Positions 31,115-55,253 of a DNA stretch of 64,000 nucleotides are shown here, in pieces. Positions within the stretch are counted from its first letter, which is position 1; every line of letters starts with the position of its first letter. The notes under the pieces are model-generated. The model made no database searches and was not told the origin of the DNA. It saw nothing but the letters and a program-made list of their open reading frames with translations. The position numbers and the translations under genes were made by a program. The DNA is from Homoserinibacter sp. YIM 151385 (GTDB lineage Bacteria; Actinomycetota; Actinomycetes; Actinomycetales; Microbacteriaceae), in NCBI RefSeq assembly GCF_027912415.1, contig NZ_CP115175.1, positions 1,798,001 through 1,862,000 of the forward strand, written 5' to 3'.

Positions 31115-32005
31115 TCAGAAGGGCGGGCGTCCGCCGATCGCGAGGACCGCGCGCGCCGCGACCATGACCCCGCTCGCGGCCGCGGCATCCACATCGCCGT
31201 CCTGCGCCCAGCGATGCAGGAAGCCCGCCGCGAAGGCGTCGCCGGCGCCCGTCGGGTCGACGAGCCGGACGCGCGGGGCCGGCGTGCGGCGGGGCTCCTC
31301 GCCGCGACGGGCCGCGAGCACGCCCTCGGCCCCCATCGTGAGCGCCACGACCTCGTGGCGCTCGAGCAGGGATGCGACCATGCGGGCGGGGGTGCGCTCG
31401 CCCGTGAGCAGCTCGGCCTCGACGAGGTTCGGGAAGATCACCCGGACGCCCTCGGTCGCCTCGCGGAAGGCCGGCACGCCGAAGTCGCGGAGATAGCCGA
31501 TCGAGCCCGGATTGAGCGCGACGGGGACGCCGGCGGCGGTCGCCGCATCCACGATCTCCCGCGCTCCCTCGACGCCGAAGCCGTCGAGGAAGCTGTAGGC
31601 GCTGAGGTGCACGACGGACGCCGTCTCGAGGAGCGCGGGGGTGAGGGCGGCCGTGTCGAGGAGCGCGTTCGCGCCGCGCTCCGTGAGCATCGTGCGGCGG
31701 TCGCCCTCGATGACGATGACGACCGTGCCGGTCGGGACGCCCACCTCCACCTGCAGGTGCGCGCGCACCCCGGCATCCGCGAACATCTGCCGGTGGCGCG
31801 CGGCGTCGGCGCTGCCGACCGCGCCCACGTAGTCGACGTCGGCACCGAGCGAGGCCAGCCAGGCCGCCGTGTTGGCCCCCGAGCCGCCGGGGCGCTGCCG
31901 GATCGAGGCCGTCGTGTCGGTGTTGCGCTGGAAGCCGCCGCGCGGCACGGCCACGATGTCGTTGAGGAGGTCGCCGACGACGACGATGCGCTCGCGCGAC
32001 GTCAT
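31115..32005 (-). CDS. PfkB-family carbohydrate/nucleoside kinase
   Basis: 296 aa. The start MTSRERIVVVGDLLNDIVAV and the signature RPGGSGANTAAWLASLGADV give the ribokinase fold substrate side; VDPTGAGDAFAAGFLHRW carries the anion hole and catalytic Asp. It resembles the ribokinase/sugar kinase branch; the substrate is undetermined. It is convergent with the photolyase gene (13 nt gap). Upstream (32006 onward) there is no operon partner. Confidence 0.88.
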   Translation of the reverse strand: MTSRERIVVVGDLLNDIVAVPRGGFQRNTDTTASIRQRPGGSGANTAAWLASLGADVDYVGAVGSADAARHRQMFADAGVRAHLQVEVGVPTGTVVIVIEGDRRTMLTERGANALLDTAALTPALLETASVVHLSAYSFLDGFGVEGAREIVDAATAAGVPVALNPGSIGYLRDFGVPAFREATEGVRVIFPNLVEAELLTGERTPARMVASLLERHEVVALTMGAEGVLAARRGEEPRRTPAPRVRLVDPTGAGDAFAAGFLHRWAQDGDVDAAAASGVMVAARAVLAIGGRPPF

Positions 32006-32975: not shown

Positions 32976-34643
32976 TCAGCCGGTGATCTTGCCCGGGTTG
33001 AAGGTGCGCTTCGGGTCGGCCGCCTCGAACAGGCCGCGCATGACCGCGACGCCCTCCGAGGAGATGTCCTGCTCGAGCCACGGCGAGTGCTCGACGCCCA
33101 CGCCGTGGTGGTGCGAGATCGTGCCGCCGAAGTCGATGAAGGCCTGCTGGATGGCGCGCTTGACGATGTCGTACTCGCCGAGCGGGTCCTCATCCCCCAT
33201 CACGAACGCGAAGGTGAAGTAGAGGCACGCGCCCGAGTGGTACGAGTGCGAGAGATGCGACATGATCCAGCCCTTGCGGCCGATCTGCTCGTAGGCGGCG
33301 TTCGCGGCGGCGTAGACGCCGTCGTGGATGCCGGCCAGCTTCGACCACGGTCCGGCCGTCTCGCTGACGTCGCCGGCCGCGCCCATGTCGAGCAGGAAGT
33401 CGCGCAGGTAGGGGGTGTCGAACTTCTTCTGGTCGTAGAGGACGCCGGGACCCTTGCCGACGCCGAGGCCGTGGTGCTTGCGGACGATGCGGTCGACGAT
33501 CGCCTTCTGGCGCTTCGCGTGCGCCTCGCCGCCCTCGAAGCCGATGAAGGAGAGGCAGACCTCGTCCATGTCCCAGCCGCGGCCCTCGAGGAACGCGAAG
33601 AGGCCGTCCTGCACCTTCTTCGAGATGCCCTTCGACTCCTTGCTCGTCGCGAGCGAGAAGCCGGACTCGTTGGAGTCGGAGATGCGGGTGACGCTCGGCG
33701 TCGCATCCGACTCCGAGATCTCCTGCATGGCGGCGAGGCCGTCCTCCCAGGTCTTGAAGAAGTAGGCGAAGATGTCGCGCCGCTCCGGCACGCGGTGCAC
33801 CTGCACGGTGACCTCGGTGATGACGCCGAGGCGGCCCTCCGAGCCGAGGATCATCTCGCGGACGCTCGGGCCGGTGGAGGCCGAGGGGATGGCGCGGATG
33901 ACGAGCGTGCCGCCCGGGCGGACCACGCGGAGGCCCTTCGCGATGTCGGCGATGTCGCCGTACTTGTCCGACTGCATGCCGGAGGAGCGGGTCGCGACCC
34001 AGCCGCCGAGCGTCGAGTGGGTGAAGGAGTCGGGGAAGTGCCCGATCGTCCAGCCCTGCGCACCCAGCTGCGCCTCCAGGTCCGGACCCTGGGCGCCGGC
34101 CTGGATGCGGGCGAGACCGGAGGCCTCGTCGATCTCGAGCACCTGGTCGAGGCGGCCGAGGTCGAGCGAGACGATGACGCGGGTCTCCTCGCGCGGGGCC
34201 TCGAGGCTGCCGGCGATGTTGCTGCCGCCGCCGAAGGGGATGATGACGGCGTCCTGGGCGACCGCGGCATCGACGATCCGCTGCACCTCGGCCTCGTCGG
34301 CCGGGTAGACGACGATGTCGGGCACGCGGCCGAGGTCACCGGCGCGGACGCGGACCAGGTCGCGGAGGCTCTTGCCGTAGGCGTGGACGACGCGGGTCAT
34401 GTCGTCGACGTGCGCGTGCTCCTCGCCGACGATCTCCGCGAGCTTCGCCCGGAAGGGCGTCGTCGCCTTCGACTCCGGCACATCGAGGGCGTCGAAGTCG
34501 GGGCGCTCGGCCTTCTCGGCCGACCACAGGTCGAGCCCGACGGCGTCGAGCACGAAGGGCGCGAAGTTCGGCTTGTCCTCGTGGTGGAAGCCGACGCCCT
34601 CGCGGCCCCAGCCCCACCACTTCATGTGCTTGACGTCGGTCAC
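32976..34643 (-). CDS. Alkyldihydroxyacetonephosphate synthase-like FAD-linked oxidase
   Basis: 555 aa from a GTG start, AGGAG 7 nt upstream. The start MKWWGWG is the hallmark of the AGPS family. The PCMH FAD domain has VVYPADEAEVQRIV and the P-loop IPFGGGSNIAG near residue 140. The C-terminal domain holds SHSYHSGACLYFTF and ISHHHGVGVEH; the triple His (511-513) corresponds to the essential His cluster of AGPS. AGPS swaps the acyl group of acyl-DHAP for a fatty alcohol, forming the ether bond of ether lipids. Related family members oxidise D-hydroxyacids, so function is inferred from motifs plus the adjacent fatty-alcohol-forming reductase. Confidence 0.85.
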   Translation of the reverse strand: MTDVKHMKWWGWGREGVGFHHEDKPNFAPFVLDAVGLDLWSAEKAERPDFDALDVPESKATTPFRAKLAEIVGEEHAHVDDMTRVVHAYGKSLRDLVRVRAGDLGRVPDIVVYPADEAEVQRIVDAAVAQDAVIIPFGGGSNIAGSLEAPREETRVIVSLDLGRLDQVLEIDEASGLARIQAGAQGPDLEAQLGAQGWTIGHFPDSFTHSTLGGWVATRSSGMQSDKYGDIADIAKGLRVVRPGGTLVIRAIPSASTGPSVREMILGSEGRLGVITEVTVQVHRVPERRDIFAYFFKTWEDGLAAMQEISESDATPSVTRISDSNESGFSLATSKESKGISKKVQDGLFAFLEGRGWDMDEVCLSFIGFEGGEAHAKRQKAIVDRIVRKHHGLGVGKGPGVLYDQKKFDTPYLRDFLLDMGAAGDVSETAGPWSKLAGIHDGVYAAANAAYEQIGRKGWIMSHLSHSYHSGACLYFTFAFVMGDEDPLGEYDIVKRAIQQAFIDFGGTISHHHGVGVEHSPWLEQDISSEGVAVMRGLFEAADPKRTFNPGKITG

Positions 34644-35368
34644 GCGGGATCTCCTCGGGTGGTGTCGGGGTCGTGGGGTGCGGCCGGGCGGCCGAGGATG
34701 CGGCTCGCGTGCTCGGCGTGCATGGCCAGGATCGCATCGCGGATGCGGGTCGTGAAATCGACGGGCGTCTCGCCGGGCAGCGGGCGCATGGGCGCCCCGA
34801 AGACGACGCCGATGGGGAGGCGGCCGGGCTTCGGCCACTTCGAGCCGCGCGGGTGCGCCTCGTAGGCGCCGATGATCGCGACGGGGAGGACCGGAACCTC
34901 GGCGGACGCGGCGAGGGCGGCGGCGCCCGGCTTGAAGGCGGCGATCCGCCCCGAGCGGGTGCGCGTGCCCTCGGGGAAGACGAGGAGCGGGACGCCGCGC
35001 CTGAGGAGCTCCTTCGCGCTGACGCTCCGCTTCGCGGCGCCGGTGCGGTCGACCGGGAAGGCGTTGAAGAAGAGGGCCGTCAGCCGACGGCGCCACCACA
35101 CGTCGAAGAAGTAGTCGGCGGCGGCGCCGGCCGCGAGGTAGCGGCCGAGTCGACGCGGGATGGCGCCCTGGATGAGCGGGGCGTCGAGGTGCGAGCTGTG
35201 GTTCGCGACGACGACGTAGGAGGAGTCGACGCCCTTGAGCTGCTCGCGGCCGATCACGGTGACCCTGGTGATCGTCCAGACGACCGCCTTGAGCAGGCCG
35301 CGCTGGGCGACGAAGCGCGCGGCGGCTTGCGAGCGGGACGTGAAGCGGTCACGCGCCATCGCGGCCAT
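34640..35368 (-). CDS. PlsC-type 1-acylglycerol-3-phosphate acyltransferase
   Basis: 242 aa. Acyltransferase motif I is NHSSHLD (His57, Asp62), motif III is FPEGTRTRSG near 130-140, and motif IV is VPVLPVAIIG. A membrane-associated N-terminal helix precedes them. It transfers acyl groups to lysophosphatidate-like acceptors; in this operon the acceptor could be 1-alkyl-glycerol-3-phosphate or DHAP. The stop overlaps the GTG start of the AGPS-like gene by 4 nt. The C-terminal tail is polar and Pro-rich. Confidence 0.9.
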   Translation of the reverse strand: MAAMARDRFTSRSQAAARFVAQRGLLKAVVWTITRVTVIGREQLKGVDSSYVVVANHSSHLDAPLIQGAIPRRLGRYLAAGAAADYFFDVWWRRRLTALFFNAFPVDRTGAAKRSVSAKELLRRGVPLLVFPEGTRTRSGRIAAFKPGAAALAASAEVPVLPVAIIGAYEAHPRGSKWPKPGRLPIGVVFGAPMRPLPGETPVDFTTRIRDAILAMHAEHASRILGRPAAPHDPDTTRGDPA

Positions 35369-35495
35369 GGAACCCCTCCCGTGCGGGTCCGTGCCCGCGT
35401 CTGGTGGACGTACCGGGCAAGCCTACTGCCGGATGCCCGCAGCGGTATTCGGAGCCCTCGCGCGATCCGCTGGTCGGCGCGCGAGGCGGGCGGGG

Positions 35496-36260
35496 TCAGG
35501 CTCGCGAGGAGGAGATGCGGCGCGAGATCCAGCGGACCGTCGTGCGCGGGAGATGGCGGGTGAACCAGATGAGCACCCGGTACCGAATACTCGGCATGGA
35601 GATCACCCGGCCCCGGTCCACATCCCGCAGCGAGGTCGCGACGAGCGCGTCCGCATCCAGCCAGAGCGACTCGGGGATGCTCGACGAGCGGATGCCGGCC
35701 CGCTGATGGAACTCCGTGCGAACCCAGCCGGGGCAGAGGGCCGTCACGGTGACGCCCGTGCCGTGGAGCTCGTTCGAGAGCCCCTCCGTGTAGGAGGTCA
35801 CCCAGGCCTTGATGGCCGAGTATGCGCCCATCGTGATGAAGCCGGCCGTGCTCGAGACGTTGACGATCGCGCCGTGCCCGCGCTCGCGCATGGCGCGCCC
35901 CGCGGCGCCGCCGAGGACGAGCACCGCGCGCACCATGACCTCCATGGCGCGGTCGTGCACCTCGACGTCGCTCGCGGTGAGCTTCCAGTGCACGCCGAAG
36001 CCGGCGTTGTTGACGAGCAGGTCGACGGGCCTGGACGGGTCCTCGATGCGGGCGGCGACGCGATCCACGTCGGCGCGCACCGAGAGGTCGGCCGAGAGCA
36101 CCTCCACGTGGCGGCCGGTCGCGCGCAGCTCGGCCGCGGTCTCCTCGAGGCGGGCCTCGTCGCGCGCGACGAGGACGAGGTCGTGGCCGCGGGCCGCGAG
36201 CGCCCGCGCGAAGGCCGCGCCGATGCCCGAGGTCCCGCCCGTGACGAGCGCAGTTCCCAT
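35496..36260 (-). CDS. Short-chain dehydrogenase/reductase, candidate acyl/alkyl-DHAP reductase
   Basis: 254 aa. The NAD(P) motif is TGGTSGIG (residues 7-14), NNAG follows in LLVNNAGFGV, and the catalytic pair is Tyr147/Lys151 in AYSAIKAWV with Ser in VNVSSTAG. The C-terminal 45 residues are basic and hydrophobic (RYRVLIWFTRHLPRTTVRWI), suggesting membrane association, unlike ordinary classical SDRs of 250 aa. Membrane SDRs of this kind include the yeast/animal 1-acyl-DHAP reductases. It heads the minus-strand operon with PlsC and the AGPS-like gene (127-nt gap to PlsC). Substrate is inference. Confidence 0.85.
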   Translation of the reverse strand: MGTALVTGGTSGIGAAFARALAARGHDLVLVARDEARLEETAAELRATGRHVEVLSADLSVRADVDRVAARIEDPSRPVDLLVNNAGFGVHWKLTASDVEVHDRAMEVMVRAVLVLGGAAGRAMRERGHGAIVNVSSTAGFITMGAYSAIKAWVTSYTEGLSNELHGTGVTVTALCPGWVRTEFHQRAGIRSSSIPESLWLDADALVATSLRDVDRGRVISMPSIRYRVLIWFTRHLPRTTVRWISRRISSSRA

Positions 36261-36361
36261 AGCGCTTACGATACGGTGCTGGGGAGTCCTGCCCGGCGAC
36301 AGGACGGCATCCCCCGGACCCGCACCACGACGATCCGCTCCATCACGAAGGCGATCCCCGC
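36261..36361. promoter_or_regulatory. Divergent promoter region of the lipid gene cluster
   Basis: 101 nt between divergent ATGs. On the minus strand, TATCGT (36276-36271) lies just before the SDR start, implying a very short or absent leader. The dyad GTCCTG-CCCGGCGA-CAGGAC (36286-36305) sits near the middle and could serve a regulator acting on both operons. Confidence 0.45.
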
Positions 36362-37186
36362 ATGACCGCGAACGACGACACGGCGACCGCTCCCGAGCGG
36401 GCCGTCTTCGACGTCCGCGAGTTCGCGCGGACCGCCCGCGGCAGCCACCGCGACGCCCTCGACCTCTCGGGCCTGGAGACGCAGCCGCTGGACGCGGACG
36501 CCGCCCGCCTGGTGCGCGCGCTCCGTGATCTCGAGCGCGGCACGCTGCATCGCATGCGCGACCTGCTCGTGACGGCGACCCACAAGGACGCCCGCGTGAC
36601 CGCGTTCCTCACGACCTGGATGTACGAGAAGTTCTGGCTCGCCGACGCGCTCGACGCGGTCCTCGAGCAGAGCTCCGCCGCCGAGGACCTCCCGGCGAAG
36701 GACGGCGCCGCCCGCCGCACCCGGCGCGAGCGCGCCGAGCGCCGAGGCCCCATCCTCCGCGCCATCGCCTCGAACTTCGACGGCCCGCAGATCGTCGCCG
36801 CGCATGTGACGACCGGCCTCGTCGACGAGTGGATCACGCAGGCGGCATATCGGCGCCTCGCGGGCGCCGCGCACGCCCTCCACGGGCTCGTCGACACCGT
36901 CATCGAGGTCAAGGACCGCCACATCCGCTTCCTCCAGGAGGAGGCGGAGCGCCGCCTGCGCGTCTCGGAGCGGGCCCGCAAGCTGACCCGGCGCGAGCTC
37001 GATCGCGCCGCCTGGCCCATCGGCTCCGTCGGCCGCTCGGACGACGAGCGCAGCTTCTTCGAGCGCATGGTCTTCGGCTCCGACGAGGGCCGCGCCGAGG
37101 CGGGCGCCATCCGCCGCCTCCTCGAGCACCTCCCCGGCATCGGACCCGGTGTCGCCGCGAACGTCGAAGCGAGGCTCGTCCCGTGA
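36362..37186 (+). CDS. Ferritin-like protein with degenerate diiron site (paralog A)
   Basis: 274 aa. It aligns along most of its length with the gene at 39482: LRDLERGTLHRMRDLL, TTWMYEKFWLADALDAVLE, VDEWITQAAYRRLAG. In paralog B the ligands are E45, E77xxH80, E141, E171xxH174. Here E58 and the Glu of VDEW remain, but positions equivalent to E77, H80 and E171 are Lys90, Leu93 and Lys, so a normal diiron centre cannot form. It may be a non-catalytic subunit or scaffold for paralog B. A 30-residue charged insert (KDGAARRTRRERAERR) is present only here. It overlaps the reductase gene (GTGA). No database name is recognised by eye. Confidence 0.75.
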   Translation: MTANDDTATAPERAVFDVREFARTARGSHRDALDLSGLETQPLDADAARLVRALRDLERGTLHRMRDLLVTATHKDARVTAFLTTWMYEKFWLADALDAVLEQSSAAEDLPAKDGAARRTRRERAERRGPILRAIASNFDGPQIVAAHVTTGLVDEWITQAAYRRLAGAAHALHGLVDTVIEVKDRHIRFLQEEAERRLRVSERARKLTRRELDRAAWPIGSVGRSDDERSFFERMVFGSDEGRAEAGAIRRLLEHLPGIGPGVAANVEARLVP

Positions 37187-39477
37187 CCCCCAAGCGCGCC
37201 AAGATCGATCTCGGCGAGGCCCACGTCCTCCTCACGGGGGCGACCGGCTTCGTCGGCCAGGCGGTGCTCGAGCGCCTCCTCGCCGACCACCCCGGCACCC
37301 GCATCTCGATCCTGGTGCGCGGCAAGGGCAGCCAGACCGGCCAGGACCGCCTGCGCCAGCTCATGCGCAAGCCGGTCTTCAAGGCCTGGCGCGAGCGCCT
37401 CGGCACCGAGGCGGCCGATGCGGCGGTCGCCGCGCGCGTGAACGTGCTCGAGGGCAGCATGACGAGCATCCCGCCCCTCCCCGCCGACCTCGACGTCGTC
37501 ATCCACTCCGCCTCCACGGTGTCCTTCGACCCGCCCATCCACGAGGCCTTCGACACGAACGTCAACGGCGCCGTCTCGCTCTACTCGGCGCTCCGCGAGG
37601 CCGGCGGCGACCCCAGCGTCGTGCACGTCTCCACCTGCTACGTCGGGGGGCTCCGCCGCGGCGTCGTGCCGGAGGCGAAGCTCGAGCACGAGGTGGACTG
37701 GCGCCGGGAGTGGGAGTCGGCCCGCAGCGCGCACGACGGCACCGAGCTCGCCTCGCGCGAGCCCGCCGCCCTCGAGGGCTTCATCGCGGAGGCCACCCGC
37801 CGGCACGGCAAGGAGGGCCCCATCGCGGTCGCCCGCGCCAGCGAGGCGCTCCGCGTCGCGTGGGTGCGCGAGCAGCTCGTGGAGGCCGGCCGGCTCCGGG
37901 CGCGTAGCCTCGGCTGGACGGACGTCTACACCCTGACCAAGGCGATGGCGGAGCGCGCCGCCGAGGAGATGTGGGGCGAGGACGGCCACCGTCTCGCCGT
38001 CATCCGACCGGCGATCATCGAGAGCGCCCTGCAGCATCCCTTCCCCGGATGGATCGACGGCTTCAAGGTCGCCGACCCGCTGATCCTCGCCTACGGCCGC
38101 GGCCAGCTGCCCGAGTTCCCCGGCCTCCCCGACTCGATCCTCGACCTCATCCCGGTCGACTTCGTCGTCAACGCGATCATCGCGGCGGCGGCGAACCCGG
38201 TGAAGCGGAACGCGCCGGAGTACTTCCACATCGCCTCCGGCGCCTCGAACCCGCTGCCCTTCCACCGCATGTTCCAGAACGTGCGCGAGTACTACCTGGC
38301 GAACCCGATGCCGAAGGGCGACGGCGTCATCGAGGTCCCCGACTGGTCCTTCTCGGGCGAGCGGAAGTTCAACCGCGGGGTCGCCCTCGCGAAGCGCAAG
38401 GCGGAGCTCTCCGAGCTGTGGCTGCGCCGCCTCCCCAACGACGACCGGAAGCGGGCCAAGGAGGCCGAGCTCGCGAAGCTCAAGGCCGGCATCGACACGC
38501 TCGGCAACTTCACCGACCTCTACCGCGCCTACGTGCGGACCGAGATCATCTTCGACGACCGCCAGACGCGCGCCCTCGACGCCGCCCTCCCGGCGAGGCA
38601 CCGTGAGGACCGCGGCTTCGACGTCGAGCGCATCGACTGGGAGGACTACCTCCAGCGGGTGCACTTCCCGGCGATCACCGACATGACGCGCGCCTACCAG
38701 CGCCGCAAGCAGTCCGCGGCCGTGCCCGCCTCCGCCCGCCCGCGGAAGGCGCTCGCGGAGCGCTCGGACGTCGTCGCCGTGTTCGACCTCGAGGGCACCG
38801 TCGTCGAGTCGAACATCGTCGAGCAGTACCTCTGGGTGCGCTCGGCGGGCTACCGCAAGGCGGCCTGGCCGAAGGAGGTCGTCAACCTCCTCGGCTCGCT
38901 CCCCGGATACCTGCGCGCCGAGCGCCGCGATCGCGGCGAGTTCATCCGCGCCTTCCTGCGCCGCTACAAGGGGATGCCGGTCCGCCGCCTCGAGAAGATC
39001 GTCGAGCGCGGCTACGCGGACACGATGCTCCGCCACACGAGCGCGGAGGCCGTGGAGCGCATCCTCGAGCACCGCGCCGCGGGCCACCGCACCGTCCTCG
39101 TGACGGGCTCGATCGGCCTCCTCGCCTCCCCCCTCGCGGCGCTCTTCGACGAGGTCGTCGCCTCGAGCATGCACGAGCGCAACGGGCTGCTCACCGGCTA
39201 CCTCGCGAAGCCGCCGCTCGTCGACGAGGCGCGCGCCGCCTGGCTCGTGCAGTACGCCGATCGCCACGGCCTCGACCTGGCCGGCTCGTACGGCTACGGC
39301 GACAACCACTCCGATCTCTCGTGGCTCTCGCTGGTCGGGAACCCCACCGCGATCAACCCCGACTCCGAACTCTCTCGTGAGGCCCACCGCCGCCAGTGGT
39401 CGATCCACCGCTGGCGATCCGGCGGAGCAGGGGTCCGACGTGATGTGATCGCTGCGAAGGCAGCACGGAAGGACTAG
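37183..39477 (+). CDS. Fatty acyl-CoA reductase-like SDR fused to HAD-IB phosphatase
   Basis: 764 aa from a GTG start. Residues 10-400 are an extended SDR of the fatty acyl-CoA reductase type: TGATGFVG at 18-25, Tyr249/Lys253 in VYTLTKAM, and RPAIIESALQHPFPGW, the FAR substrate-domain signature. Residues 400-515 are the sterile-like C-terminal FAR region (YRAYVRTEIIFDD, IDWEDYLQRVHFP). Residues 525-760 are a HAD-IB phosphatase: motif I VFDLEGTVVES with Asp535 but Glu537 where Asp is usual, motif II VLVTGS, and GYGDNHSDLSWL as motif IV. The FAR part would make fatty alcohol from acyl-CoA; the HAD part would remove a phosphate, perhaps from a glycerolipid intermediate. It lies between the two ferritin-like genes. 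Confidence 0.85.
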   Translation: MTPKRAKIDLGEAHVLLTGATGFVGQAVLERLLADHPGTRISILVRGKGSQTGQDRLRQLMRKPVFKAWRERLGTEAADAAVAARVNVLEGSMTSIPPLPADLDVVIHSASTVSFDPPIHEAFDTNVNGAVSLYSALREAGGDPSVVHVSTCYVGGLRRGVVPEAKLEHEVDWRREWESARSAHDGTELASREPAALEGFIAEATRRHGKEGPIAVARASEALRVAWVREQLVEAGRLRARSLGWTDVYTLTKAMAERAAEEMWGEDGHRLAVIRPAIIESALQHPFPGWIDGFKVADPLILAYGRGQLPEFPGLPDSILDLIPVDFVVNAIIAAAANPVKRNAPEYFHIASGASNPLPFHRMFQNVREYYLANPMPKGDGVIEVPDWSFSGERKFNRGVALAKRKAELSELWLRRLPNDDRKRAKEAELAKLKAGIDTLGNFTDLYRAYVRTEIIFDDRQTRALDAALPARHREDRGFDVERIDWEDYLQRVHFPAITDMTRAYQRRKQSAAVPASARPRKALAERSDVVAVFDLEGTVVESNIVEQYLWVRSAGYRKAAWPKEVVNLLGSLPGYLRAERRDRGEFIRAFLRRYKGMPVRRLEKIVERGYADTMLRHTSAEAVERILEHRAAGHRTVLVTGSIGLLASPLAALFDEVVASSMHERNGLLTGYLAKPPLVDEARAAWLVQYADRHGLDLAGSYGYGDNHSDLSWLSLVGNPTAINPDSELSREAHRRQWSIHRWRSGGAGVRRDVIAAKAARKD

Positions 39478-39481
39478 GGCG

Positions 39482-40276
39482 ATGGCGTTCGACATCGACA
39501 AGTACACGAAGAACTCGGTCGGCGTGCAGTGGGCCGATCTGGACTTCGACGAGTTCGATCGAGACCCCCTGCCCGAGTCGACCCTGCGCACCCTCCGCTA
39601 CATGTGCGACATCGAGTACCACACGGTCTGCTACATGCGCGACATGCTCACGACCCCCTCGCACAACGAGCCCGAGGTGGGCGCGTTCATGACCATGTGG
39701 AACCGCGAGGAGTTCTGGCACGGCGAGGCGCTCGCCGCGGTGCTCGACCGGCACGGCATCACGGTCGACTTCGACCAGCTCAAGGCGACGCGCCTCAAGC
39801 TCGGCTGGAAGGACCGCCTCGACCCGATCAAGCAGAGCCTCATGGGCAAGCTCGTCGGCATGGACTTCGTGGCGGTCCACATGGCGTGGGGCGCCGCGAA
39901 CGAGTGGTCGGCGAACGCCGCGTACCACCGCCTCGCCGCGATGGAGTCGCACCCCACCCTGTCGCCGCTGCTCAAGCGCATCGCGCAGCAGGAGACGAAG
40001 CACGTCGCCTTCTACGCCTCGCAGGCGCGCGACCGCCTCGCGAAGTCGAAGAAGGCGCGCGTCATCGCGCGGTTCGCGCTCAACAACGCCTGGGGCCCGG
40101 TCGGCTCCGGTGTCATGGACGACGACGAGGTCACGCACGTCATGGGCCACCTCTTCGCCGGCCCCGAGGGGCGCAAGCTCATCCGCGACATCGACGCGCA
40201 CATCGCGAAGCTGCCGGGCCTCGACGGCCTCACGATCGTCGAGAACTCGCTCGAGAAGCGCGGGATCCGGGGCTGA
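39482..40276 (+). CDS. Ferritin-like diiron protein with intact ligand set (paralog B)
   Basis: 264 aa, 4 nt after the reductase-HAD stop. The four-helix diiron ligand pattern is complete: E45 (DIEYHTVCYM), E77xxH80 (EEFWHGEAL), E141 (NEWSANAAYH) and E171xxH174 (QQETKHVAFY). This E/ExxH/E/ExxH set is shared by acyl-ACP desaturases, aldehyde-deformylating oxygenases and N-oxygenases. I cannot assign the reaction. Next to a fatty acyl reductase and an ether-lipid synthase, oxidation of a fatty aldehyde, alcohol or alkyl chain (for example vinyl-ether formation) is a reasonable hypothesis. Confidence 0.8.
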   Translation: MAFDIDKYTKNSVGVQWADLDFDEFDRDPLPESTLRTLRYMCDIEYHTVCYMRDMLTTPSHNEPEVGAFMTMWNREEFWHGEALAAVLDRHGITVDFDQLKATRLKLGWKDRLDPIKQSLMGKLVGMDFVAVHMAWGAANEWSANAAYHRLAAMESHPTLSPLLKRIAQQETKHVAFYASQARDRLAKSKKARVIARFALNNAWGPVGSGVMDDDEVTHVMGHLFAGPEGRKLIRDIDAHIAKLPGLDGLTIVENSLEKRGIRG

Positions 40277-40336: not shown

Positions 40337-41071
40337 GTGCCCCGCCCCTTCCTCCTCGTGACGACGCGCGACGACGACGTCGCCGCGCGCGGCGAGCGGG
40401 AGCTCTTCCTGCGGCTCATGGGCCTCGAGCCCGAGCGGCTGGAGCACGTCCGCGCCGAGCAGGCGCCGCTGCCGTCGATCGATCCCGCCGACTACGCCGG
40501 CATCCTCCTCGCGGGCAGCCCATACACCTCCACCGATCCCGTCGAGTCGAAGAGCGCGGCGCAGCTGCGGGTCGAGCACGAGGTGGCGGAGCTCCTCGAC
40601 CGCGTGATCGCGGCCGACGCGCCCTTCCTCGGCGCCTGCTGGGGCATCGGCACGCTCGGACTCCACCAGGGCGCCACGATCGACCGACGCTTCGGCGAGC
40701 AGACCGCCGCCGTGCCGATCACGCTCACCCCCGAGGGCGAGGCGGACCCGCTGTTCGGCCGCCTCCCCCGCGTCTTCGACGCCTTCGTCGGGCACAAGGA
40801 GGCCGTGAGCGAGCTGCCCCCGCACGCCGTCCTCCTCGCGACGGGCGCCGCCTGCCCGGTGCAGGCGTTCCGGGTCGGCACCCACCAGTACGCGACCCAG
40901 TTCCATCCCGAGCTCGATGCGACCGCGATGCTCGCCCGCGTCGCGCTCTACCGCACGAGCGGCTACTTCCCCGCGGACGAGGTGGATGCGGTCGCGGCCC
41001 GGGTGGCCGCGGCGGACGTGCGCGCGTCCCACCTCGTGCTGCGCGGCTTCGCGGAGCGATACGCAGGCTGA
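40337..41071 (+). CDS. Class I glutamine amidotransferase-like protein
   Basis: 244 aa from a GTG start. The nucleophile elbow GACWGIG places Cys101; His190 lies in QFHPELD, and a Glu follows two residues later. The protein resembles stand-alone GMP-synthase-like amidotransferases, in which the ammonia-acceptor domain is missing. Possible roles include hydrolysis of gamma-glutamyl compounds. It is 60 nt from the lipid cluster with no overlap, so it is probably a separate unit. Confidence 0.87.
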   Translation: MPRPFLLVTTRDDDVAARGERELFLRLMGLEPERLEHVRAEQAPLPSIDPADYAGILLAGSPYTSTDPVESKSAAQLRVEHEVAELLDRVIAADAPFLGACWGIGTLGLHQGATIDRRFGEQTAAVPITLTPEGEADPLFGRLPRVFDAFVGHKEAVSELPPHAVLLATGAACPVQAFRVGTHQYATQFHPELDATAMLARVALYRTSGYFPADEVDAVAARVAAADVRASHLVLRGFAERYAG

Positions 41072-54513: not shown

Positions 54514-54966
54514 TCACCCCAGTCCGGGGCGGCGCATCCCGGTGTGGGGAATGCCGTCCTCCTCGTAGAGCTCGCCGGTCGGCCGGAAGCCGAAGCGGCC
54601 GTACCAGTCGGCGAGGTGCGCCTGCGCCCCGAGCTCGATCGGGGAGGCCGGGGCGAGCTCCTCGCAGCGCTCGACGGCGGCCCGCATGAGCGTGCTCGCG
54701 ACGCCGCGGCTGCGCGCCTCGAGCGCCGTCGCGACGCGCCCGATCCGCATCGCATCCCCCTCGTGCAGCACGCGGACGGTCGCGAGCACGCGACCGTCCT
54801 CCTCGGCCCAGAGCAGCTCCGCGCCGGGCTCGATGTCGCGGCCGTCGAGGTCCGGGTAGGCGGCGGCCTGCTCGACGATGAAGACCTGCACCCGCAGCTC
54901 GAGGATGCGGTACAGGGTCACGGGGTCCAGCTCGGCGGCGGGGGCGCGGCGGATGTCGACGGTCAC
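54514..54966 (-). CDS. ElaA-type GNAT acetyltransferase
   Basis: 150 aa from GTG. The ElaA pattern ILELRVQVFIVEQAAAYPDL followed by DGRD is clear, with acetyl-CoA loop TALEARSRGVASTLM (the Q/RxxGxG/A site reads RSRGVA). GNAT enzymes acetylate amines; the ElaA branch substrate is unknown. It is 54 nt from the divergent PBP start region and lies downstream of tRNA-Arg on the same strand. Confidence 0.87.
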   Translation of the reverse strand: MTVDIRRAPAAELDPVTLYRILELRVQVFIVEQAAAYPDLDGRDIEPGAELLWAEEDGRVLATVRVLHEGDAMRIGRVATALEARSRGVASTLMRAAVERCEELAPASPIELGAQAHLADWYGRFGFRPTGELYEEDGIPHTGMRRPGLG

Positions 54967-55024
54967 GTGCCGACGCTAGCGGAGCGGCGGGGGCTCAGGC
55001 GTCGGTTCAGCCGCCGATGTCGCC

Positions 55025-55091
55025 GTTCTGCAGGACCGCCGGGCCCAGCCCGCCATCGGATGCGTGTCCGGCTCGGGATCTCCTGCAGAAC
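55025..55091. repeat. 67-nt hairpin element with CTGCAG core
   Basis: GTTCTGCAGGA (55025-55035) and TCCTGCAGAAC (55081-55091) form an 11-bp perfect inverted repeat enclosing 45 nt; flanking CGCC/GGCG extend it with a small bulge. The arm shares TGCAGGA with the elements at 20839-21033. Confidence 0.7.
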
Positions 55092-55162: not shown

Positions 55163-55180
55163 GGACTGTCTCAACCAGTG

Positions 55181-55253
55181 TGCGCCCGGAGGGATTCGAA
55201 CCCCCAACCTTCTGATCCGTAGTCAGATGCTCTATCCGTTGAGCTACGGGCGC
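55181..55253 (-). tRNA. tRNA-Arg(ACG)
   Basis: 73 nt. Acceptor arms GCGCCCG and CGGGCGC pair perfectly; D-arm, TCTGA-CTACGGA-TCAGA anticodon arm with ACG, and GGGTTCGAATCCC T-arm are all in place; CCA is not encoded. A34 should be deaminated to inosine by TadA, whose gene is at 17196-17657, to read CGU, CGC and CGA. Confidence 0.97.

Follow-up and report, generated by a model that had tools for sequence, protein, structure and literature searches.

A divergent six-gene cluster in Microbacteriaceae that probably encodes an aerobic ether-lipid pathway of the plasmalogen kind, with a new candidate desaturase

Six open reading frames (ORFs), arranged in two divergent operons, were located in the window analysed here, which is a stretch of 64,000 nucleotides from Homoserinibacter sp. 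YIM 151385 (family Microbacteriaceae; contig NZ_CP115175.1, positions 1,798,001 to 1,862,000). Together they probably specify an aerobic actinobacterial route to ether lipids, of the plasmalogen kind, in which one protein is a new candidate desaturase. In window coordinates, the features are as follows.

32976..34643, minus strand: homologue of alkylglycerone-phosphate synthase (AGPS), 555 aa from the GTG at 34643, with FAD_binding_4 and FAD-oxidase_C domains
34640..35368, minus strand: PlsC-type acyltransferase, 242 aa, with an Acyltransferase domain (PF01553)
35496..36260, minus strand: reductase of the short-chain dehydrogenase/reductase (SDR) type, 254 aa, with an adh_short domain (PF00106)
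36261..36361, no strand: divergent intergenic region between the two operons, 101 bp
36362..37186, plus strand: FERa, a degenerate ferritin-like partner, 274 aa, matching no Pfam or NCBIfam family
37183..39477, plus strand: FAR-HAD, 764 aa, in which a fatty acyl-CoA reductase (FAR) and a HAD-IB phosphatase-like domain are fused
39482..40276, plus strand: FERb, a ferritin-like diiron protein and candidate plasmanyl (vinyl-ether) desaturase, 264 aa

This layout, including the meeting of the operons at 36261-36361, is the one that the first-pass annotation of the sequence had described. The PlsC and AGPS genes on the minus strand overlap at a GTGA, as do the FERa and FAR-HAD genes on the plus strand.

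The first-pass annotation had recognised an AGPS-like flavoprotein by an MKWWGWG start and an HHH cluster. Both motifs are present; numbered from the GTG start, MKWWGWG begins at residue 7 (an internal ATG) and HHH occupies residues 511-513. In a phmmer search of the PDB, the protein matched Dictyostelium AGPS (1.3e-115) and guinea pig AGPS (1.5e-85), while the best non-AGPS match was 4e-24, with glycolate oxidase and D-lactate dehydrogenase at that value or weaker. R320, Y475 and H511-513 align with R419, Y578 and H615-617 of guinea pig AGPS. Arg419, Arg515, Tyr578 and the HHH of the guinea pig enzyme are presumably its active-site residues, and the PDB chains include the crystal variants R419H and Y578F, which are changes at two residues conserved here. 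The window protein and all 11 other cluster AGPS sequences aligned retain the equivalents of Arg419, Arg515, Tyr578 and HHH. Two GlcD-like rows lack these residues except for one His, and a third row labelled GlcD-like (L083) retains them, Arg515 excepted. In a tree of 30 rows, the 12 cluster AGPS and two eukaryotic AGPS form one group (support 97/98), outside which fall the other actinobacterial AgpS-like proteins; since the eukaryotic branches are long, the tree is taken as support and not as proof. These other AgpS-like proteins, presumably including M. tuberculosis AgpS, are 32-42% identical and keep the checked active-site residues in 12 of 13 aligned. A D-lactate or glycolate oxidase with a non-AGPS active site, which the annotation had raised as the alternative, was rejected, as PDB scores, active-site residues and tree all indicate AGPS; the sequence is likewise closer to AGPS than to 2-hydroxyglutarate dehydrogenases. 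These three lines of evidence make the window flavoprotein an AGPS (EC 2.5.1.26), with acyl-to-alkyl exchange on acyl-DHAP as its predicted activity. In four cases, the AGPS match was split into two adjoining pieces, perhaps by sequencing error or decay (L021:4639-6293, L039:3286-4937, G135:C1:2484542-2486181 and G390:C294:3286-4919).

The acyltransferase named in the annotation was recovered with PF01553 at 9.7e-24 and the motifs NHSSHLD and FPEGTR. PlsC is a candidate acyltransferase for dihydroxyacetone phosphate (DHAP), 1-alkyl-glycerol 3-phosphate (1-alkyl-G3P) or both. The SDR matches PF00106 (1.5e-44), carries TGGTSGIG, NNAG and YSAIK, and has mycolate reductase as its best NCBIfam match (160 bits, where the cut-off is 380); it is a candidate acyl/alkyl-DHAP reductase. 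It had been described as a membrane-tailed SDR, of which the family assignment holds and the tail does not; no membrane-spanning segment was found (best 19-residue hydropathy 1.24), and the C-terminus is basic. The fusion of a fatty acyl-CoA reductase with a HAD phosphatase is borne out by NAD_binding_4 (PF07993, 4e-46) and HAD (PF12710, 7.1e-30) domains on one ORF, with the motifs GATGFVG, YTLTK (at 249; YxxxK), DLEGT and GDNHSD. The Sterile domain PF03015 matched FAR-HAD at 6.3e-07 and 29.9 bits, below its cut-off of 35.4.

FERa and FERb are 32% identical. They are indeed a ferritin-like pair, as had been noted, but not of equal standing. The diiron ligands of FERb (E45, E77, H80, E141, E171 and H174) are the same in all 23 sequences and form the set E, ExxH, E, ExxH, as in soluble acyl-acyl carrier protein (ACP) desaturases, whereas FERa reads E-K-L-E-K-H at these positions, with Lys at two Glu sites and Leu at one His. 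The FERb sequence matched Rubrerythrin, COQ7 and FA_desaturase_2 of Pfam weakly, all below cut-offs, and reached 16 bits against the gathering score of 22.7 for the soluble acyl-ACP desaturase family PF03405, which matched 22 of 42 FER proteins at E<=0.01. In a PDB profile search with FERb, a helix bundle designed de novo matched at 7.1e-08, which I treat as a motif match; DesA2 followed at 0.0088, and all others were weaker. AlphaFold2 modelled FERb with a predicted local distance difference test (pLDDT) of 86.2 and a predicted TM-score of 0.86, and FERa with a pLDDT of 86.6. Compared by VIA-align, the FERb model was closest to the acyl-ACP desaturases of ivy (Z 18.1, root-mean-square deviation 3.2 over 234 residues) and castor (Z 18.0, 3.3 over 236 residues), with 13-18% identity to acyl-ACP desaturases in the structural alignments, which extend along most of the protein. 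M. tuberculosis DesA2 (Z 16.4), R2lox and ribonucleotide reductase R2 (both about 16), and an aldehyde-deformylating oxidase (Z 15.7) came next. For FERa, acyl-ACP desaturase and R2lox tied at Z 16.5 and 16.3, and the two were not separated; its model thus retains the fold despite the altered ligand positions. Neither FER protein matched the CarF family PF10520 or showed a membrane segment, PEDS1/CarF being a membrane protein of that family with conserved histidines. FERb is thus predicted from its model to have the soluble acyl-ACP-desaturase fold; it departs from those desaturases in being paired with a degenerate paralog and in scoring below the FA_desaturase_2 cut-off. I read FERa as the structural partner of FERb, by analogy with the yeast Rnr2/Rnr4 pair.

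Are the six genes inherited together? A pattern-based scan of named genomes for FAR-HAD, which recovers only part of the carriers, found the fusion at 43 loci in actinobacteria and at three others that are distant. Near FAR-HAD in the actinobacterial loci, AGPS and SDR were found in 43 of 43, PlsC in 42 and both FER genes in 40, and 40 loci have the complete set. This recurrence exceeds chance. The named carriers include Streptomyces, Schumannella, Agreia, Frigoribacterium, Glaciihabitans, Frondihabitans, Labedella, Subtercola, Naasia and Agrococcus. Most loci share the window's gene order; L006 deviates, and in L037, L038 and L040 (Subtercola, Labedella) a PlsC lies between FAR and FERb. Next to that extra PlsC, Subtercola boreus (L038:11294-13548) has a Lar_N protein. 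When 398 family genomes were scored for AGPS (E<=1e-100) and FERb (E<=1e-15), 114 had both, 10 FERb only, one AGPS only and 273 neither (totals 124 for FERb and 115 for AGPS; phi 0.94). The search for co-occurrence across the family that the first-pass annotation had suggested is therefore strongly positive, with 11 genomes having one gene only. Among these, the FERb match of G107 lies at a contig end and the single AGPS-only genome is 85% complete. One of the 124 genomes counted for FERb, G113 (77% complete), has only a FERa-level match (2.7e-33). The two genes vary together inside some genera (for example, g9 and g17). The Naasia locus without adjacent FER genes has the pair on a different contig from the AGPS cluster; the two other FER-less named loci are from metagenome-assembled genomes, and no FER pair was found in either.

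These data bear on whether FERb/FERa has nothing to do with the pathway, being an oxidative-stress or iron protein that travels with the other genes through linkage. The ferritin-like superfamily, the weak Rubrerythrin match and the solo FERb relatives described below, which have no AGPS nearby, would suit such a protein, but co-inheritance with AGPS when unlinked and the desaturase-type ligand set and fold of FERb make it improbable.

It is very likely, judging from the sequences, that the cluster encodes an ether-lipid pathway, and the aerobic ether-lipid route that the annotation had read in this actinobacterium is supported to that extent. The aerobic plasmalogen pathway of animals consists of FAR1, GNPAT, AGPS, PexRAP/AGNPR, an acyltransferase and PEDS1 (PMC9131029). 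The cluster likewise has FAR, AGPS with its active-site residues kept, and reductase-like and acyltransferase-like genes. Unlike the animal pathway, it has no separate GNPAT gene, its FAR is fused to HAD, and a soluble ferritin-like diiron pair is in the gene set in place of PEDS1/CarF, which was not found by PF10520 in a search without a matching control. In the proposed scheme, FAR-HAD would reduce fatty acyl-CoA to fatty alcohol and PlsC would acylate DHAP. AGPS would then exchange the acyl chain for the fatty alcohol, giving 1-alkyl-DHAP, which the SDR would reduce to 1-alkyl-G3P. The sn-2 position would be filled by PlsC or a housekeeping acyltransferase. Finally, FERb, as a soluble diiron desaturase with the degenerate FERa, would dehydrogenate the alkyl chain at 1'-2' to a vinyl ether. 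Identities, motifs, predicted fold and co-inheritance come from the sequences, whereas every reaction, its place in the pathway, what FERb acts on and what the HAD domain does are inferences. On balance, I favour with moderate confidence the whole of this scheme, that is, an oxygen-dependent ether-lipid pathway ending in plasmalogens with the vinyl step by FERb/FERa. Taken by itself, the assignment of the vinyl bond to FERb/FERa has a little less than an even chance.

Other vinyl-ether systems resemble the cluster in part. Myxococcus xanthus makes ether lipids and plasmalogen aerobically, and its elb operon and MXAN_1676-1674 share with the cluster an AGPS homologue, FAR domains, acyltransferase domains and a HAD protein (ElbB) (PMC9131029). 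None of the six proteins is a multidomain protein of the ElbD type, which joins FAR, ligase, carrier and acyltransferase, and the vinyl bond of M. xanthus is made by CarF (PMC9131029), unlike the proposed FERb/FERa step. Aerobic vinyl-ether formation is attributed to CarF/PEDS1, which in bacteria has been reported for myxobacteria, a few Leptospira and Alphaproteobacteria, its function having been demonstrated for myxobacteria and Leptospira (PMC9131029). The anaerobic reductive route through PlsA/PlsR (PMC9702350) would share the end product proposed here; the cluster is of the DHAP/AGPS type.

FAR-HAD is not confined to this setting. It is widespread, with 77 carriers among the 394 genomes searched in the class, of which three belong to the family. 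Twenty loci outside the family were sampled. Seven belong to the AGPS/SDR type (one on a contig that stops before the expected AGPS position), 11 to a second type and two to neither; the FER pair is present in three of the seven, none of the 11 and neither of the two. In the second arrangement (L171, L175-L177, L180-L182 and L184-L187, class Actinomycetes), FAR-HAD is accompanied by a Lar_N-family protein, the domain being assigned from the family members tested, usually by PlsC and sometimes by an alcohol dehydrogenase, without a cluster-type AGPS or FER. Could the cluster then turn fatty alcohol or aldehyde into non-ether products, such as wax esters, or alkanes by FAR and an aldehyde-deformylating ferritin-like protein? 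The company of FAR-HAD in these loci (Lar_N-domain protein and PlsC) and the aldehyde-deformylating oxidase among the FERb fold matches would fit. However, that oxidase stands 2.4 Z units below the acyl-ACP desaturases, no wax-synthase domain was matched in the six proteins, and an AGPS with AGPS active-site residues belongs to the same gene set. Wax or alkane production is very improbable.

Chemical data from relatives bear on the end product. Dimethyl acetals (DMA) obtained when cells are methanolysed serve as a plasmalogen marker (PMC7472656). Table sums for Subtercola vilae, S. frigoramans, S. boreus and S. lobariae give DMA as about 21-29% of total peak area, and Agreia has at most 4% (PMC5945732). 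The 15:0 anteiso aldehyde/DMA is listed for Frigoribacterium adelgis and F. faeni (PMC12823222). Among these genera, S. boreus, F. faeni, A. pratensis and A. bicolorata have genomes that carry the cluster. The DMA reports in cluster-bearing genera point to the plasmalogen type, which the first-pass annotation had offered as possible, while the reports on F. endophyticum and Frondihabitans discussed below are contrary. In the DMA-positive relatives, it is likely that plasmalogens are the end product through this cluster.

Searches for the known vinyl-forming enzymes speak for this reading. PF10520 was matched in none of 17 genomes searched (16 cluster carriers and one planctomycete), a weak negative since no positive control was matched either; PF09989, which I take to be the PlsA domain, was matched in none of the 17 and in four of 14 controls. 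CarF and PlsA were thus set aside as the vinyl-forming enzyme in these genomes, for CarF with the stated weakness.

Several observations, besides that weakness of the CarF search, weigh against this reading, or against the part given in it to the FER pair. Foldseek alone gave no match for FERb at E<=0.001, acyl-ACP desaturases coming first at 1.7e-3. The membrane fatty-acid desaturase PF00487 is present in 16 of 16 genomes tested. Nine genomes of three genera, 99-100% complete, have FERa/FERb without FAR-HAD or a close AGPS, one of them encoding a 38% AGPS-like protein. At L059-L066 and L073 (g26, g57, g79), FERa and FERb are paired, the other four genes are not in the examined DNA, and some FERa have lost further ligand residues. 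Since FERb of the nine AGPS-less genomes nest inside the cluster FERb in a tree, the loss of AGPS looks secondary, with the FER pair still functional. In the phylum, solo relatives of FERb occur in 20 of 396 genomes (L114-L133), which belong to other families of Actinomycetota, mostly at 37-45% identity and not beside AGPS; all six ligands are kept in those aligned (15 out of 20). AGPS-like genes were found in seven of these 20 genomes versus 10 of 17 FERb-negative genomes taken from the phylum list, so that a phylum-wide tie of FERb to AGPS was looked for and not found for the solo relatives. Nor do the solo genes have a general neighbour, as gene groups were common to only a few of the 19 loci compared.

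The remaining contrary points are chemical. No DMA were reported from F. endophyticum and F. salinisoli, the two other Frigoribacterium species compared (PMC12823222), and Frondihabitans is said to have none, with 14:0 2-OH listed as a major acid (PMC5945732). F. endophyticum (L029) has all six genes yet no reported DMA, and Frondihabitans (L021 and L023, including Frondihabitans sucicola) also carries the cluster. Thus, cluster presence is not always matched by reported DMA. Because of F. endophyticum, I lowered my estimate for plasmalogens from a firmer grade of likely, and that for the desaturase role and my overall confidence slightly as well. A study with the MIDI system lists 14:0 2-OH and no DMA for four Subtercola type strains (PMC9287328), all four DMA-positive in the data of other authors.

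Part of this conflict may be one of naming. In Kineococcus rubinsiae, the MIDI "14:0 2-OH" peak was a-15:0 DMA (2.9%) by gas chromatography-mass spectrometry, and MIDI recognises DMA solely with the anaerobe library, according to the authors (PMC7472656). Such misnaming may lie behind the 14:0 2-OH of Frondihabitans and the DMA-free MIDI profile of Subtercola. The Subtercola 14:0 2-OH figures agree with the earlier a-15:0 DMA figures in two of four species only, and a fifth species, S. endophyticus, is listed without 14:0 2-OH (PMC9287328). For F. adelgis, 14:0 2-OH and a-15:0 aldehyde/DMA are given side by side (PMC12823222), which disfavours a simple misnaming there. Over the four Subtercola points, MIDI 14:0 2-OH correlates with i-16:0 DMA at r 0.98, and with a-15:0 DMA at r -0.70; an identity with i-16:0 DMA was considered and is at odds with Kineococcus, where the peak was assigned to a-15:0 DMA.

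Many of these points would also suit a cluster that makes alkyl-ether lipids, with the vinyl bond formed by another enzyme, for example, a membrane desaturase, and FERb/FERa tailoring chains as a fatty-acyl or acyl-ACP desaturase or oxidase. The closeness of the FERb fold to acyl-ACP desaturases, the PF00487 desaturases, the FER pairs retained in the nine genomes, the four of seven sampled outside AGPS-type loci without FER nearby and the DMA-free reports for some carriers can all be read in this way. However, FERa/FERb closely follow AGPS in the family, even when unlinked as in Naasia, and I regard chain tailoring as rather unlikely. Vinyl-ether formation by FERb/FERa would make the pair a third, independently evolved route, a soluble ferritin-like diiron heterodimer of one catalytic and one degenerate subunit that replaces the membrane desaturase PEDS1/CarF in aerobic actinobacteria and explains the DMA reports, some perhaps hidden as MIDI 14:0 2-OH; I put this forward tentatively, as a proposition that falls somewhat short of even.

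Neighbours outside the gene set include a sugar kinase of the PfkB family (31115-32005) and, at 40337-41071, a glutamine amidotransferase. Farther along the window are two tRNA-Arg genes, both with the anticodon acg, at 54933-55026 (plus strand) and 55180-55253 (minus strand), separated by about 150 bases. The first is predicted at 94 bases, which is long for a tRNA-Arg, and may be an odd call.

In the open-access literature, no title or abstract opening among the matches listed dealt with this cluster or with a ferritin-like plasmalogen desaturase; subscription papers and preprints lay outside the scope. Plasmalogens have been seen as a trait of animals, anaerobes and, exceptionally among aerobic bacteria, myxobacteria (PMC9131029). 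DMA have been reported in aerobic Subtercola, Frigoribacterium and Kineococcus (PMC5945732, PMC12823222, PMC7472656), which the Kineococcus authors called "at first sight surprising". The cluster is a genetic candidate for this DMA chemistry in Subtercola and Frigoribacterium, the proposed desaturase would be one unrelated to PEDS1, and some of the 14:0 2-OH values published for the family may need to be read again.

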